A stretch of DNA of 64,000 bases from Geothrix sp. GTDB lineage: Bacteria > Acidobacteriota > Holophagae > Holophagales > Holophagaceae. How positions within the stretch are numbered: the stretch's first letter is position 1; every line of letters begins with the position of its first letter. Below, in pieces: positions 52,482 to 60,005 of this stretch. The notes beneath the pieces were generated by a model. That model made no database searches. It was given only the letters and a program-made list of their open reading frames with translations, and had not been told where the DNA came from. Where the stretch lies: assembly GCF_030219325.1 (NCBI RefSeq), contig NZ_CP126625.1, positions 558,001 through 622,000 on the forward strand, in the 5' to 3' direction. The position numbers and the translations under genes were made by a program.

Positions 52482-54392
52482 TCACCCCGCCTGGCTGTGA
52501 TTCGCCGGGGTCCAGCCCCGCTCGTTCAGCAGCTTCACGCCCTGGATGCGGGTGAGGCGGAAGGCCATCTCCTCCTGGTGGAGGTGGCAGAAGGCCAGCA
52601 GGTGGTCCTCCTGGATGGTGCGGGGGGACACACGCCGCAGCTGGGTGCGGTGGGCCGCCGGGGGCAGGTAGGTGAGCTCCACCATGAGGGTGTGGCCCGC
52701 GGCGTATTCGAGGATGCGCTGCACTTCTTCGGCCAGCTGGTCCTCGCCGCCCAGGTGCAGCATGGGGATGCGCCGCTGCACCTCCTGGTAGAGGGCGGGG
52801 TCCTCGTCGTGCAGCTTCTGGAGGGCCGAGCGCACCATCTGCTGGACGGGCTCCAGGTGGTGGTTCATGCCCTTTTCATCCACGAAGGCCAGGGCCGCCA
52901 GGGCCCAGAGGTAGAGCTTTTCGTCCGAGTCCACGCTGAGGGCCAGGAAGCGGCCGGGCTTGGGCATGAAGCCCGCCTGCTTGAGCAGGGCATGGGCGTT
53001 GCCGTCCCCGCGCACTTCCAGCACTGTGTCCGACAGCGAGCCCAGCTTCAGGGGCGCCAGCTCGGGCCGCAGTTTCAGTTCCTCGGCCAGGTGGGCCGTC
53101 CGGGCCCGCACGAGGCGCACGCCCTGGTGGACCTCCACCTCGCCCACGCGGCGGGAGAGATCCTCCAGCAGCTGGAGCAGGGGCTGGGGCAGGGTCTGGG
53201 TGGTGGCGCCCAGGCGGAGGCCCAGCTCCTCCAGGGGCACGCCCGCGTCCAGGGCCCGCACCAGGGTGGCGTGGCTCACCCGGAAGCTGCCCATGGCATC
53301 CAGCGACTCGACATCCGCCAGCTGGGCCAGCTGCAGCAGCCGGTGGGGGTTCTGCAACAGCGGCGTCAGCAGCTCCAGGGTGGGCTGCATGATCATGGGC
53401 TGGTCCAGTTCCAGCGGCTGCCAGTGGGCGGCCGTGCCCTTGAGGTCGCGCAGCAGGTACTCGTGGGCCAGGGCCTCGCCGTGTTCGGTGAGCCGGAGAT
53501 GGGCGAAGCCCTCGTCGGCCTGGATGATGCCCATGCGGCCCAGGAAGGGGAGGAACACCGTGCGGGTGCGCTCCTCGTCGAGGGGATGCAGGGTCTTGAG
53601 GAAGGCCAGGAAAGGCTGCACCGCCAGGGACTGGCCGCGGCGCTCCAGCAGGTGCTGCATGAGGAAGTGGCGGTCCTCCGCCGGGGGCATGCCCCAGGCC
53701 TTGAGGTCGTGTTCCAGCAGGCTGGCGAAGGCGCGCTCGGCCACCCAGCGGGGCGGATGGCTGGTGACCGCGGGCAGCAGCGTCTCCACGCGGCCGTCAC
53801 GGTTCCACAGCAGGCCCAGGCGATGCAGCAGGGTGAAGAGCAGGGTCGCGTCCTGCTCCTCCTGGAGCATGGCGTTGCGCTGCATGAGCTGGCCCAGCTC
53901 CTTCTTGGCGGGCAGGCCACCCTTGAGCACGCGCAGGCCCGCCACGCAGCGCAGCAGGACGGTGGTGAGGGCCAGGGAGAAGCGGAAGGGCTCGGCCGCC
54001 CTGAACTTCACCTCGGTGGGGGTCTGGAAGCTCAGCGCGCCCTCGTCGAAATCCTCCAGGGCATCGGCCACCCGCTCCGCCACGGCCCAGCCGGCTCCGG
54101 TCGGCAGGATCAGGCCCAGGTCCCGCAGGATCTCGATCACCGCGGGTTCCGGTGGGGTCCCGTCGCTGACGAAGTGCTTCAACGCGACCAGGGAGCCGCT
54201 GCCCAGGTCGGCGAGGCTGTCCGACAGCCGCTTGTGGTCCTCCAGGTGGAAGACCATGGTCTTGAGCAGGCGCATGCGCCCCTCGCCGCAGTCCTCCCAG
54301 CGGATGGGGATGGGGAGGCGCCGTCGCTCGCAGATGGTTCGAAGCTGCTCATCCGAGCAGTTCGAGAGAAGCTGGAAGTGCGTGTGCGGCAT
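52482..54392 (-). CDS. XPB-helicase-associated protein with WYL domain
   Basis: A 636-residue protein. Residues about 355-480 form the domain also found at the N-terminus of bacterial XPB helicases (MIMQPTLELLTPLLQNP..., with FRVSHATLVRALDAGVPLEEL). A WYL domain closes the protein (LMVELTYLPP...TIQEDHLLAFCHL). The first 340 residues are helical and winged-helix-like. In mycobacteria a protein of this type is encoded next to XPB (Rv0862c beside Rv0861c); here XPB lies 3.9 kb away at 58260. It may regulate or bridge the helicase in repair. The start ATG sits six bases from a MITE-like element. Confidence 0.78.
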   Translation of the reverse strand: MPHTHFQLLSNCSDEQLRTICERRRLPIPIRWEDCGEGRMRLLKTMVFHLEDHKRLSDSLADLGSGSLVALKHFVSDGTPPEPAVIEILRDLGLILPTGAGWAVAERVADALEDFDEGALSFQTPTEVKFRAAEPFRFSLALTTVLLRCVAGLRVLKGGLPAKKELGQLMQRNAMLQEEQDATLLFTLLHRLGLLWNRDGRVETLLPAVTSHPPRWVAERAFASLLEHDLKAWGMPPAEDRHFLMQHLLERRGQSLAVQPFLAFLKTLHPLDEERTRTVFLPFLGRMGIIQADEGFAHLRLTEHGEALAHEYLLRDLKGTAAHWQPLELDQPMIMQPTLELLTPLLQNPHRLLQLAQLADVESLDAMGSFRVSHATLVRALDAGVPLEELGLRLGATTQTLPQPLLQLLEDLSRRVGEVEVHQGVRLVRARTAHLAEELKLRPELAPLKLGSLSDTVLEVRGDGNAHALLKQAGFMPKPGRFLALSVDSDEKLYLWALAALAFVDEKGMNHHLEPVQQMVRSALQKLHDEDPALYQEVQRRIPMLHLGGEDQLAEEVQRILEYAAGHTLMVELTYLPPAAHRTQLRRVSPRTIQEDHLLAFCHLHQEEMAFRLTRIQGVKLLNERGWTPANHSQAG

Positions 54393-54398
54393 GAGCAC

Positions 54399-54673
54399 CT
54401 AGGAGCGTGTCCAGGCAATGGGTGGGGGCTGCACAGGGGCGCCAGCCGAGGGAGGCCAGGAAAGCGACGAAGGCCTTGGTGGCCCCAAGGTCGAGGAGCT
54501 TGACGCAGCATCCCGACGGCTGCCGTCCCTGCCCGCAGGGTTGATGGCAAAGGGCCCCCATGCTGCGTCAGCGGGCTTGAACGGTGTACCTGCACCGCCC
54601 TGCGCCCACTTCCTTGCCTGGAAACCCTTTGCCATCAATGCAGCCCCTATCGATTGCCCGGACACGCTCCTAG
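54399..54673. mobile_element. MITE-like element (267 bp) with CTAG target duplications
   Basis: Terminal inverted repeats GAGCGTGTCCAGGCAATGG (from 54403) and, read inverted from 54669, GAGCGTGTCCGGGCAATCG differ at two of 19 positions. Both ends are flanked by CTAG (54399-54402 and 54670-54673), a target duplication of the YTAR type known from IS5-group transposons. Inside are two further inverted pairs, 54501-54511/54560-54570 and 54541-54554/54625-54638, which interlock. No transposase is encoded. It fills most of the gap of about 375 bases between the two neighbouring minus-strand genes. Confidence 0.75.
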
Positions 54674-54769
54674 GTACAGAGGATCTTCCAGTATCCCACA
54701 TTAGTGGAATCCGCTCACGCGCAAAAAACGCCCGGCATGCCGGGCGCTTGGGTGGACAAAACCAGGAGG

Positions 54770-57700
54770 CTAGTTGGCGGGTTCCAGGCGGTGGGTGTGG
54801 CTGACCACCCCGTCGCTGAGCACCAGGTCGAAGCGCTTGCCGGTGGCCGGGATGATCTGACGGCCGCCGGAGAGGATGGCGATGACCTCGCCGGTATCCG
54901 CATCCCGGACCAGGGCGGCCGGGTGGACGGTGGCGTCCCAGGTGAGCTGCAGCTTGTCGGCGGACAGCCGCTGGGCCTCAGGCGTGGCCGCGATCACCCG
55001 CGCATTGGCGGTCACCGAGCGCAGGCTGGCCAGGGTCTGGCCGGCCTTGACGACCTGGAGCCCGGCCAGGGAATCCAGCAGGGCCGCGTCCAGGGGCAGG
55101 GCCATGACGAAGTGGCGGATGTGCTCCTTGGGACCACAGCCGACTTCCATCAGCTCGAGCGGCGTGGAGAATACGGCGGCGCCCTTGGCGTCCAGGCATT
55201 CCAGCGTGAAGTCGCCGGAGGCGGGGAGTTCGGAGGGCAGGGCCCGGGTGCGGAAGGAGGGCAGCAGCTGGACCCTGCCATCCTCGTGGACGATGCCGCG
55301 GACGATGAGGCACTCCCGGGCCGTGGCCTGGGCCTTGGGCAGGGGCGCATCCTCGGCGCCCACCATGAGGAAGCCGCCGGTGCCGCCGCGGAAGTTCAGG
55401 ATCTTCTGGTAGACGTAGTCGCTCACCCAGACATTGGGGCAGTACCCCATGATGTCGTGAATCGTGAGAGGGGAGAGGAGCGCATTGTTCACGCTGTCAT
55501 AACCCCAGACGCCGATCAGACCAGAGGCATAAGGGTAGTTGGGATCGGGACTGCCGGCCCCGTTGCAGGGGCTGTGCTGGCGGCCCATGTTATGGCCCGT
55601 CTCGTGGGCGAAGACCTCGGGGAAGAGGCCGCCGTCGGCGTAGCCGGTGGTCTTGTCCCAGCCGATGGCCGTACGGGTGCTAAATGAACTACTTGGAGTG
55701 TTTGGAACCCAGCCGAGGCCTGCGATTCCGTTGGCATAGCTTACGTTGAGGGCCCCGTAGTAGTAGCGATCACTGGCCCCATCCGCCTGGTGTTTGGTCG
55801 TGAGGTCGTTGAGCGTGCCGCTCCAGCTGCCGTCACTGTCATCGGAGGTCAGGGCCGAGAAAGAACCAGTGAAGGGTGCCCCCACCTGGACGTCCACGCT
55901 GGCGACGGGATACATCTTGGCGAGCCGGGCGGCCCAGGCGTCCTTGTTGGCGGCCGAGATGTTACCGTTGCCGCTGGCAAGCACCACGGGGAAGATGGTG
56001 GTCTTGAAGATGGGGACCGTGGTGCTGGTGAAGGTGACCGTGGTCTGGTTGTTGGTCTCGTCGGCTTCCACCACGGCGTTCGTGGGGTCCACTTCGGCCA
56101 GCACGCTGTAGCCGGCGCCGGTGGGCGTGGTCAGGTCCGTGCCGGGCACCGCCAGGTTCCAGCTGGCGCCCAGGCTGGATTCATTCACCACCAGGGGGAC
56201 GCTGGTCCCGGGGGCGGTCACGGTCTTGGGATAACCGGCCACCACCACGCCGTTGTTCATCAGCGTGATGCGGACCGCGGGCGTGGCCGTGTTGGCCTGG
56301 TTGGCCAGCACGAAGACCCGGATCAACCCACTCTTGCCGGCCACGATGGGCACGGTGTTGGCCAGGGTCTGGCTGCTCTGGGTGAACTGCACCTTGTCCA
56401 CGTGCAGGTCGAAGGTGGTGGTCGCGGAATTGACCGTGAAGGTGCGGGTCTGCACGCCGCCGGGCGTGGTGACCACCAGGTTGCCGGAGGTGGCGCCCGC
56501 GGGCACCGTGAAGGTGAGACGGGTGGTGCTCTGGGTGGCGATGGTGATGGGCGTGCCGTTCAGGGTGATGGTGGTGCCGGTGTAGCCGAGGTAGGTGCCG
56601 TCGATCACCACGATGGTGCCCGCGGGGCCCTGGGTCGGGCTGACCGAGGTGACGGTGGGAACGCCATAGGACACGGTGAAGTTGGTGCTGGACAGGCCGG
56701 TGCCCTGGGCGTTGGAGATGCTGATGGGGGCGGGCCCGTTGGTCGCGCCGGCGGGAATCGGAGCCGAGAGGTTGGTGCCGTCGGTGAGGGTGTAGGCGGC
56801 GCTGGCGCCGCCGATGGTGACGGCCGTGAGGCCGAAGAAGTTCCGGCCCGAGATGGTGACGGTGTCCACGCCGCCCACGCCCGAGGTGGGGGTGAAGCTG
56901 GTGATGACCGGCTTGAGGTCGGCGGCATTCGGGACCGCGATGGTGGCCGTCACGTCATCCAGCAGGAAGCTGGTGGAGGTGATCCCGGGCTGGATGCCTT
57001 TGAAGTCCAGGCGCACCACCTGACCCTTGAAGGGAAGGAGGTCGACGTTGAAGGGTGCGTAGCTGGTCGATGCGTCCAGGTTGGATTTGGTGAGGAGGGT
57101 ACCGCCGGTCAGCAGAACGCCCGAAGTGTTTCGTGCCGAGACGATGAATGTGTCCACTGCTGAAGAACCAGTCTGGTTGGTGAGGATCTTCAGGTAAAAG
57201 GTGACCGTGGCAGCCGTGGCTGTGGCTGGGATGTAGAAGTCTTGGGTGATCTCGTCTGCGAAAGGGGGGGTTCCAGATGCGTATCCTGCGAGCCAGGCGA
57301 ATTGAGTTCCGCTGTGGGGTACCACATTGGCGCCGCTGGCGCCCTGGATGATGGCCGTGTCGCCCTGCCAGATGATCGGGGTGGTCGCCTCGAAGCCCGT
57401 GTTCATCATCACCTGGGCCTGGACCGAGAGATTCACGGTGTAGGCCGCGCTGGTGGCCATGCCGCCGCCACTGGTCACGGTGATGGTGCCTGCCGTCAGA
57501 CCCGCGGGGGCCGTGGCCCGGATCTGGGTGTCACTGTCCACGGTGAAGGTGGTGGCATTGACGCCATTGAACTGCACGGCGGTGGCACCCACGAAGTGGG
57601 AGCCGGTCAGGGTGACGACGGTCCCGATGGAAAGCGCGGAAGGCGCGTAGGTGGTGATGGTCGGGGTCAGCGGGGCATCCACCGTGAAGGAGGGGGAGGT

Positions 57701-58009: not shown

Positions 58010-58259
58010 GGCGGCTCCATGCGTGATCCCCTGAGTGACGGTGGAAGAGAGCGGGTCTCAAGGGATGGAAGACTATAATCCCCTTCACACGACAGGAAGC
58101 CTGACCTTTTCTTAACCGACCCGGAGGGTTTCATTAAGCCCGGTCGTTGCGGTGCCCGGACCCCTCCGGAGGCCGCCGGCGGCCCCATGGTCTGACCACC
58201 TTCCGTTGACCCGCCATGGCCCGGCCATCTACGCTCAAAGGTTTGGGTCTCCTGCCACC

Positions 58260-60005
58260 GTGATCGCCCTCCGCCCCGACAACCCCCTGATCGTCCAGAG
58301 CGATCGCACCCTGCTGCTCGAGGTCGCCCACCCGGCGTTCGAGCAGGTGCGGGACGAGCTGGCGCGCTTCGCGGAGCTGGTGAAGAGCCCCGAGCACATC
58401 CACACCTACCGCATCACGCCGCTGAGCCTGTGGAACGCTTCCGCCTCGGGCGTCAGCTGCACGGACATGATCGAGACCCTCAACACCTGGTCGAAGTACC
58501 CGGTGCCGCAGAACCTGCTGCAGGAGATCGAGGACCACGGCACCCGCTACGGCAAGCTGCGCCTGGTGGCCAAGGGCGACCGGCTGGCCCTGGAGATGGA
58601 TGATCGCGGCCTCTTCTGGGAGCTGGAGAACCAGAAATCCCTGCAGGGCCTGCTGGCGGAACCCTACCCCGACGAGAAGGGCATCTACCTCAATACGGGC
58701 ATGCGGGGCGAGGTGAAGCTCCAACTGATCCGCCTGGGCCACCCGGTGCAGGACATGGCCGGCTACAAGCCCGGCGATCCGCTGCCCTTCGAGCTGTCGC
58801 CCACCACGCTCCAGAACGGCAAGCCCTTCGGCCTGCGGCCCTACCAGCAGGCGGCGGCGGACGTCTTCCACGCGGGCGGTGGGCCTGATGGCGGCGCCGG
58901 GGTGCTGGTTCTGCCCTGCGGCGCGGGCAAGACCGTCATCGGCATCGGCTGCATGGCCAGCCTGCAGACGCACACGCTGGTGCTCACCACCAACGGCACC
59001 GCCGTGAAGCAGTGGAAGCAGGAGCTGCTGGACAAGACCACGCTGACGGAAGACCAGGTGGGCCTCTACACGGGCGACACCAAGGAGATCAAGCCGGTCA
59101 CCATCGCCACCTACCAGATCCTCACCTACCGCCGCAGCAAGACCGGTCCCTTCGAGCACTTCAAGCTCTTCGAGGCCGCCAACTGGGGCCTGGTGATCTA
59201 CGACGAAGTGCACATGCTGCCGGCGCCGGTGTTCCGGGCCGTGGCCGAGCTGCAGGCCAAGCGCCGCCTGGGCCTCACGGCCACGTTGGTGCGCGAGGAC
59301 GGCAAGGAGGAGGACGTCTTCAGTCTCATCGGCCCCAAGCGGGTGGACGTGCCCTGGAAGATGCTGGAGAAGGACGGCTTCATCGCCACGGCCCACTGCC
59401 TGGAGATCCGCGTCCCCCTGCCCACGGACGAGCGCATGGAGTACGCCGTGGCCGACCAGCGCCAGCGCTTCCGCATCGCCTCCGAGAACAGCCTGAAGAT
59501 GGTGGTGATGGATGAGCTGCTGGCGGGCCATCCCACCGACAACATCCTCATCATCGGCCAGTACCTCGAGCAGCTCCGCATCATCGGGGAGCGGCTCAAC
59601 GCCCCGGTACTCACGGGGCAGACGCCGGAGAAGGAGCGGGAATCGCTCTTCCGGCAGTTCCGTGAGGGCCAGCTGCGGGTGCTCATCGTGAGCAAGGTGG
59701 CCAACTTCGCCATCGACCTGCCGGACGCCTCCGTAGCCATCCAGGTGAGCGGCACCTTCGGCTCGCGGCAGGAGGAGGCCCAGCGCCTGGGCCGCATCCT
59801 GCGCCCCAAGGGCGAGCGCAACGTGAGCTACTTCTACTCGCTCATCAGCAGCGAGACCACGGAGCAGGAGTTCGCCCGCAACCGCCAGCTCTTCCTCACC
59901 GAGCAGGGCTACCGCTACCTCATCGAAAGCCGCCGCTTCGACGAGCACCGCCGGCTCAGCGAACCCAGCGTGTGGAAGCAGCTGCTGGAGGAAACCAGGA
60001 TCTGA
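58260..60005 (+). CDS. XPB-type DNA repair helicase
   Basis: A 581-residue SF2 helicase. An N-terminal XPB damage-recognition-like domain (PLIVQSDRTLLLEV to about residue 180) is followed by Walker A VLPCGAGKT, the DEVH box IYDEVHMLPAP, the GLTATLVREDG motif, and helicase C-domain motifs VSKVANFAIDLP and QEEAQRLGRILRP. It closely resembles mycobacterial XPB in order and wording of motifs. GTG 58260 matches the homologous N-terminus; longer in-frame starts are not supported. It is divergent from the metzincin gene. Confidence 0.93.
   Translation: MIALRPDNPLIVQSDRTLLLEVAHPAFEQVRDELARFAELVKSPEHIHTYRITPLSLWNASASGVSCTDMIETLNTWSKYPVPQNLLQEIEDHGTRYGKLRLVAKGDRLALEMDDRGLFWELENQKSLQGLLAEPYPDEKGIYLNTGMRGEVKLQLIRLGHPVQDMAGYKPGDPLPFELSPTTLQNGKPFGLRPYQQAAADVFHAGGGPDGGAGVLVLPCGAGKTVIGIGCMASLQTHTLVLTTNGTAVKQWKQELLDKTTLTEDQVGLYTGDTKEIKPVTIATYQILTYRRSKTGPFEHFKLFEAANWGLVIYDEVHMLPAPVFRAVAELQAKRRLGLTATLVREDGKEEDVFSLIGPKRVDVPWKMLEKDGFIATAHCLEIRVPLPTDERMEYAVADQRQRFRIASENSLKMVVMDELLAGHPTDNILIIGQYLEQLRIIGERLNAPVLTGQTPEKERESLFRQFREGQLRVLIVSKVANFAIDLPDASVAIQVSGTFGSRQEEAQRLGRILRPKGERNVSYFYSLISSETTEQEFARNRQLFLTEQGYRYLIESRRFDEHRRLSEPSVWKQLLEETRI

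Follow-up and report, generated by a model that had tools for sequence, protein, structure and literature searches.

A Geothrix MITE with IS1182-type ends, and a folded core found with ends from two families of transposase

The window considered here (the whole stretch of 64,000 nucleotides that was analysed, from contig NZ_CP126625.1 of Geothrix sp.) contains at 54399-54673 a real MITE, which is ordinary as a single insertion event; the superfamily to which it belongs is unusual, in that a single conserved folded core occurs with ends from two families of transposase. Bacterial MITEs are usually regarded as worn-down insertion sequences (ISs) which are bound to a single parent. The reading which we consider highly probable as a whole is that an IS1182-family transposase would recognize the ends of about 20 bp and move the non-autonomous element in trans, that the element would insert at the TA within a CTAG/TTAA-like palindrome with duplication of the TA, and that it would have arrived at the window site after the species diverged from G018, the closest relative sequenced. 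The interior would then be a conserved, dyad-symmetric four-way-junction core and not a deleted IS, and within the Geothrix superfamily this core would have been combined with ends from two or more transposase families, IS1182 and IS5/IS427 among them. In addition, the core may help the element to move or persist at the DNA level.

The window element, called class A because of its IS1182-type ends, has the short length (275 bp when the outermost C and G of the two flanking CTAGs are counted, with no strand assigned), the non-coding sequence and the terminal inverted repeats of a MITE. Each edge is a CTAG (54399-54402 and 54670-54673), in which the TA (54400-54401 on the left and 54671-54672 on the right) is the putative target duplication. 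The terminal arms P1 (54399-54433) and P1' (54639-54673) are 35 nt each, and the first 12 nt and most of the first 20 nt of P1 are those of the ends of an IS1182-family element in another Geothrix genome (L356, see below). The inverted repeat 54397-54433/54639-54675 is 37 nt long and 89% complementary, so the terminal repeats of the preliminary description are present, but with arms of 35-37 nt instead of the 19 bp claimed. Between them lie inner arm 1 (54434-54531, 98 nt), a folded hairpin with the sub-hairpin CCTTGGtggccCCAAGG, the central mini-hairpin CCCGCAGGG of 9 nt at the dyad centre (54532-54540), and inner arm 2 (54541-54638, 98 nt), which has a conserved sub-hairpin (GAACGgTG...CAcCGCCC) and inverted motifs in common with inner arm 1. 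The folded element is symmetric (35+98+9+98+35 nt) with a four-way junction and has a computed energy of -174.7 kcal/mol (z -9.70), which none of 200 dinucleotide shuffles equalled; the minus-strand fold is also very stable (z -9.22). No credible gene of its own was found in 54399-54673, where the open reading frames listed are short and overlapping. A known structured RNA was rejected as the identity of the element, because its best scores in Rfam were far below the gathering thresholds.

The element lies before the gene of an XPB-associated protein with a Helicase_C_3 domain (52482-54398, minus strand), the longest open reading frame of which begins with GTG at 54398 and the likely start of which is the ATG at 54392-54390. 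A gene for an XPB-type helicase (ERCC3_RAD25_C) is nearby on the plus strand (58152-60005). Seven bases separate the ATG from the TA at the closer edge of the element, as had been noticed before. The flanks, joined without the element, match 44 of the 47 Geothrix genomes, and 30 loci were fetched for comparison, 29 of them from relatives. In all 29 the flanks run uninterrupted and the element is absent, the nearest being G018 with 93% identity over the whole 430-nt joined-flank query. An uninterrupted site with a single CTAG had been predicted; the first part proved right, but the second did not, since the relatives have CCGG (17), CTGG (6), CTGA (3), CCGA (1), CCGT (1) or CCAG (1) there and none of the 29 has CTAG, so that a CTAG at the window site before the insertion can only be presumed.

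On the minus strand the relatives have the conserved pattern GCGTGAG...TGGGA.ACTG...GATC.TCTGTACC.GGTG..CATG, and the element splits it just before GGTG, that is, between the upstream block and GGTG-ATG. In the window this block (GCGTGAG...TGGGATACTG...GATCCTCTGTACC, 54674-54722, minus strand), a possible native promoter or leader, is intact beyond the far side of the element, shifted by 273 bp. Because the block survives there, the native upstream region was displaced rather than replaced, and the proposal that the element replaces the native promoter and leader has to be given up as worded. A scan of 54350-54800 in either direction gave no sigma-70 promoter and no terminator. A 12-bp palindromic hairpin at 54726-54749, with the peptidase gene on one side and the conserved block on the other, is a possible terminator which the scan did not call. 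Standing between the block and the start codon, the element is probably part of the 5' leader of the gene, and the mRNA would carry it as a structured leader if transcription begins at the displaced block. The window element alters the 5' region of the XPB-partner gene in one species only.

Copies of the element were found elsewhere, as a search proposed along with the preliminary description had anticipated. The own genome, a single contig of 3,733,873 bases, gave nine DNA matches to the element, including one full copy of 77% identity and related elements with other ends. The 275-bp query matches in 37 of the 47 Geothrix genomes, the own genome counted, so the element is not a chance structure, and near-full copies of about 90% identity are present in many of them. 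Copies stand at unrelated sites, and recent movement is shown by L059 and L098, which are 99.3% identical at different sites of one genome (G001), and by a further pair (L217 and L228, 98.5% identical). Core copies with record titles (80 of the 120 matched stretches, among the matches listed) belong to Geothrix and Holophagaceae, searches of plasmid and phage records gave no match, and no description of this Geothrix family was found in the open-access literature searched. The identification as a non-coding, MITE-like element is therefore borne out by copies elsewhere, uninterrupted sites in relatives and a parent-type transposase in the genus.

For a wider comparison, 139 distinct sequences with paired ends around the core motif were extracted and one (L230, Haloferax) was dropped as a chance match. 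By regular expressions the remaining 138 were assigned to end types A (38), B (50), C (11), D (30), E (5) and other (4), counts which are biased toward motif-bearing copies since the element finder requires the core motif. Classes A and C have IS1182-type ends and classes B and D have IS5/IS427-type ends, and no parent IS was found for the ends of class E and the others. TA was present at both edges in 86 elements, the finder having failed to recover it in the other 52 of the 138, and their flanks were CTA/TAG in 53, TTA/TAA in 13, CTA/TAA in 7, TTA/TAG in 4 and other in 9, that is, YTA/TAR in 77 of the 86. The 13 cases with TTAG...CTAA flanks cannot arise by a 4-bp direct duplication, and TA duplication in TTAA fits them. 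Hence repeated bases at both edges, as first described, stand, but CTAG as the duplicated unit does not, and the duplicated bases are, from these patterns, best read as a TA at the middle of a palindromic target, CTAG or TTAA. An element which itself starts and ends with these bases, without any duplication, would look alike. Empty sites were found elsewhere in the own genome too, where the sites of L002, L003, L005 and L006 were aligned (that of L004 was left out): relatives show CTAG or CTAA at the junctions of L003 and L006, the junction bases vary among relatives at L002, and at L005 G018 retains a piece resembling one element end. L005 itself (G000:C1:2242690-2242980) is a class C element directly followed by a second left end, with one CTAG common to both.

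The TA target pattern would also suit an IS630/Tc1-type MITE, but this can hardly be what the window element is: DDE_3 occurs in 6 of the 47 genus genomes and is absent from the own genome, no matching ends were seen in the 8 loci inspected out of 15, and the IS1182 ends match exactly. IS630 was accordingly rejected as the parent. IS5/IS427 was likewise rejected as the parent of class A, the ends of which occur in none of 21 PF13340 loci nor in the IS5_3 loci fetched. The first pointer to IS1182 came from viral contigs with class A-like ends, and in L352 such an end adjoins the C-terminal 73 residues of a transposase of the IS1182 family. Autonomous elements sharing the ends were then found in L356 (in G024), an IS1182-family IS of 1545 bp with perfect 21-bp ends CCTAGGAGCCTGTCCAAGTAA and a transposase that scores 382.8 bits (cut-off 270), and in L357 (in G028), the left end of which is the same. 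Of the class A arms, 29 of 58 agree with the IS1182 end at 18 of 19 positions. The ends differ in part from those of L356 (GGAGCG in the element, GGAGCC in L356, CTG-like changes being preferred), so that the exact parent may be another IS1182 variant. The IS1182 element exceeds the cut-off in only 3 of the 77 genomes of the family, and class A copies are present in far more. A parent-type transposase, which the preliminary description had suggested looking for, is thus found in another Geothrix genome but not in the own genome, where profile searches with PF13358, PF13340, NF033580 and NF033551 gave no transposase; the window copy is therefore probably immobile now, and what moved it has to be judged from other genomes. 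On the sequence of its ends, an IS1182-family transposase is the probable mover. A search of the own genome and the genus with the class A end pattern, which is too long to match an IS, gave MITE ends only.

As for the interior, similarity to the IS1182 element ends (by eye) after about 20 bp, and the rest aligns with other MITE classes and not with the IS1182 interior, so that a simple deletion derivative is not what is seen. The IS5/IS427-type ISs (PF13340 in 11 of 47 Geothrix genomes; NF033580 family) carry CTAGGGCCTGTTTTCAAAGTC or GAGTGCCTAACAA at their termini, as MITE classes B and D do: class B ends occur on L271, L272, L274, L282-L289 and L291, and class D ends on L273 and L281. In G065, a Holophagaceae genome (g9), there are at least 29 matches to IS5_3-type transposases. 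Furthermore, some elements are mosaics, such as L057, with class B ends, arm 1 nearest to class A and arm 2 nearest to class D, and L062, in which class D ends accompany a B-like arm 1. The clearest case outside the Holophagaceae is L204, on a contig labelled Proteobacteria (contamination of the genome bin is possible), which has the conserved right hairpin and is weakly similar elsewhere (arm 1 0.50, arm 2 0.63).

Several variants were observed beside these forms. A hairpin module of about 42 bp (TCTCGGTATCGCC...GGCGATACGCGAGAC...) occurs in inverted orientation at mirror-image positions within the element (in L056, L065, L081, L083, L092, L183, L198, L206, L212 and L231). L198, L163 and L178 represent one orthologous insertion, yet only L198 has the module, which must therefore be gained or lost once an element is in place. 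Bigger GC-rich hairpin insertions stand elsewhere in the core in L092, L094 and further elements of 349-483 nt. Apparent minimal forms, pairs of end patterns about 54-57 bp apart with hardly any interior, are found at G015:C30:49521-49574 and G029:C1:51888-51944, and on a phage-like contig (L292:4405-4580) there is an element of 168 bp that has class A/C-type ends and CTAG flanks but a different interior.

The fold of the core was examined in an alignment of 45 non-redundant elements, picked by a similarity cut from 91 module-free ones. The consensus has 75 pairs, 60 of them with two-sided compensatory change; 92.3% of the cells are paired, versus 72.1% in shuffles, and the covariation score is 0.529 versus 0.174, none of 500 shuffles scoring as high. 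When the pairing is slid by 1-3 columns, 35-43% is paired, a control that favours the fold since the structure was derived from the same sequences. Covariation extends beyond the ends to inner helices 2-6, 8, 10 and 11. Two alternative folds had been suggested from the interlocking repeats, but the pairing GACGCAGCAT/ATGCTGCGTC (76.4% versus 76.1% in shuffles) has no excess covariation, and it is the single four-way-junction fold which covaries.

Such covariation could be made by template switching during replication between the arms, which perfects quasi-palindromes without function or selection. This is possible, though on balance not probable, as a full explanation. The process is described for RNA hairpins in PMC8794818, and in the core changes run mainly from one Watson-Crick pair to another with few intermediates (679 two-sided cells). 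On the other hand, the other internal inverted repeat, GACGCAGCAT/ATGCTGCGTC, has not been homogenized, the lengths of the arms and the sequences of the loops are conserved from class to class, and the overall length is constant (266-285 nt in most module-free copies). Template switching can also operate alongside selection. The inner stems have 2329 Watson-Crick, 55 G-T, 36 A-C and 68 other cells, and the ends 50 G-T, 32 A-C and 102 other among 2963, so that wobble pairs are few and G-T is mildly above A-C, which leaves some room for a role as RNA. These mismatch types suggest that the symmetry is kept at the DNA level more than as RNA, and the few wobble pairs would fit DNA-level symmetry through template-switch correction, selection on folded DNA, or both.

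Conversely, the core might be a functional RNA or a 3'-end device (a bidirectional terminator or stabilizer) kept for use by the host, with mobility secondary. The fold is very stable in both orientations and, with genes near elements called by a simple GC3 rule, 102 of 213 element sides have one long open frame, which in 75 is in frame with the edge TAG (p about 2e-16 against an expected one third, sides being treated as independent), the edge G of the element restoring the TAG stop codon. This is nevertheless quite unlikely: selection on RNA predicts a strong excess of G-U, whereas wobble is rare and exceeds its mirror type only modestly, Rfam is without a match, orientation to the neighbouring genes is unbiased (27/27/25/20), and stop codons already make up 42% of 192 non-coding CTAG sites (118 loci) versus 62 of 115 elements (54%, p 0.014). 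The distribution of CTAG sites therefore explains most of the association with stop codons, and stop-codon targeting as a special mechanism was rejected, since elements exceed the available CTAG sites in this respect by no more than a modest margin.

That one conserved, covarying core occurs with ends from two families of transposase opens two questions: can an element without genes change helpers, and does the folding of the DNA play a part in how MITEs move? A bolder and somewhat unlikely view, put forward tentatively, is that the core, a dyad-symmetric four-way-junction DNA, is a genetic entity in itself which survives by swapping terminal repeats, is thereby moved by unrelated transposase families (IS1182 and IS5/IS427), and requires folded DNA (a hairpin or cruciform) for its movement or upkeep.

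Among known systems, the Tn3-derived TIMEs, which have Tn3 ends, are reportedly mosaic non-autonomous elements, to judge by the title of PMC4133298. REP/REPIN elements are short, palindromic, non-coding repeats, and the window element is like them in these respects but has the terminal inverted repeats of a DDE transposon and a TA target. The IS1182-family IS L356 is like the window element in the first 20 bp or so of its ends and in its CTAG flanks, whereas the window element is only 275 bp long, without a transposase gene and with an unrelated folded interior. The IS427-type group of the IS5 family (L271, L273) has its ends on the sister MITE classes B and D, which have a related core; unlike these ISs, the window element has different (class A) ends and no open reading frame. 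According to Table 2 of PMC3281130, most ISs of the IS427 group make a 2-bp TA duplication and are 832-865 bp long. MITEAba12 of Acinetobacter, as described in PMC6382973, is 111-114 bp long with a 9-bp duplication and a single end type, its ends are common to an IS of the same genus, and stop codons and effects on neighbouring genes are discussed for it. Like MITEAba12, the window element is a bacterial MITE with the ends of a same-genus IS; MITEAba12, however, is shorter and has a 9-bp duplication and one end type, while the Geothrix family, with 275 bp in the copy described here, has a putative TA duplication and several end types.
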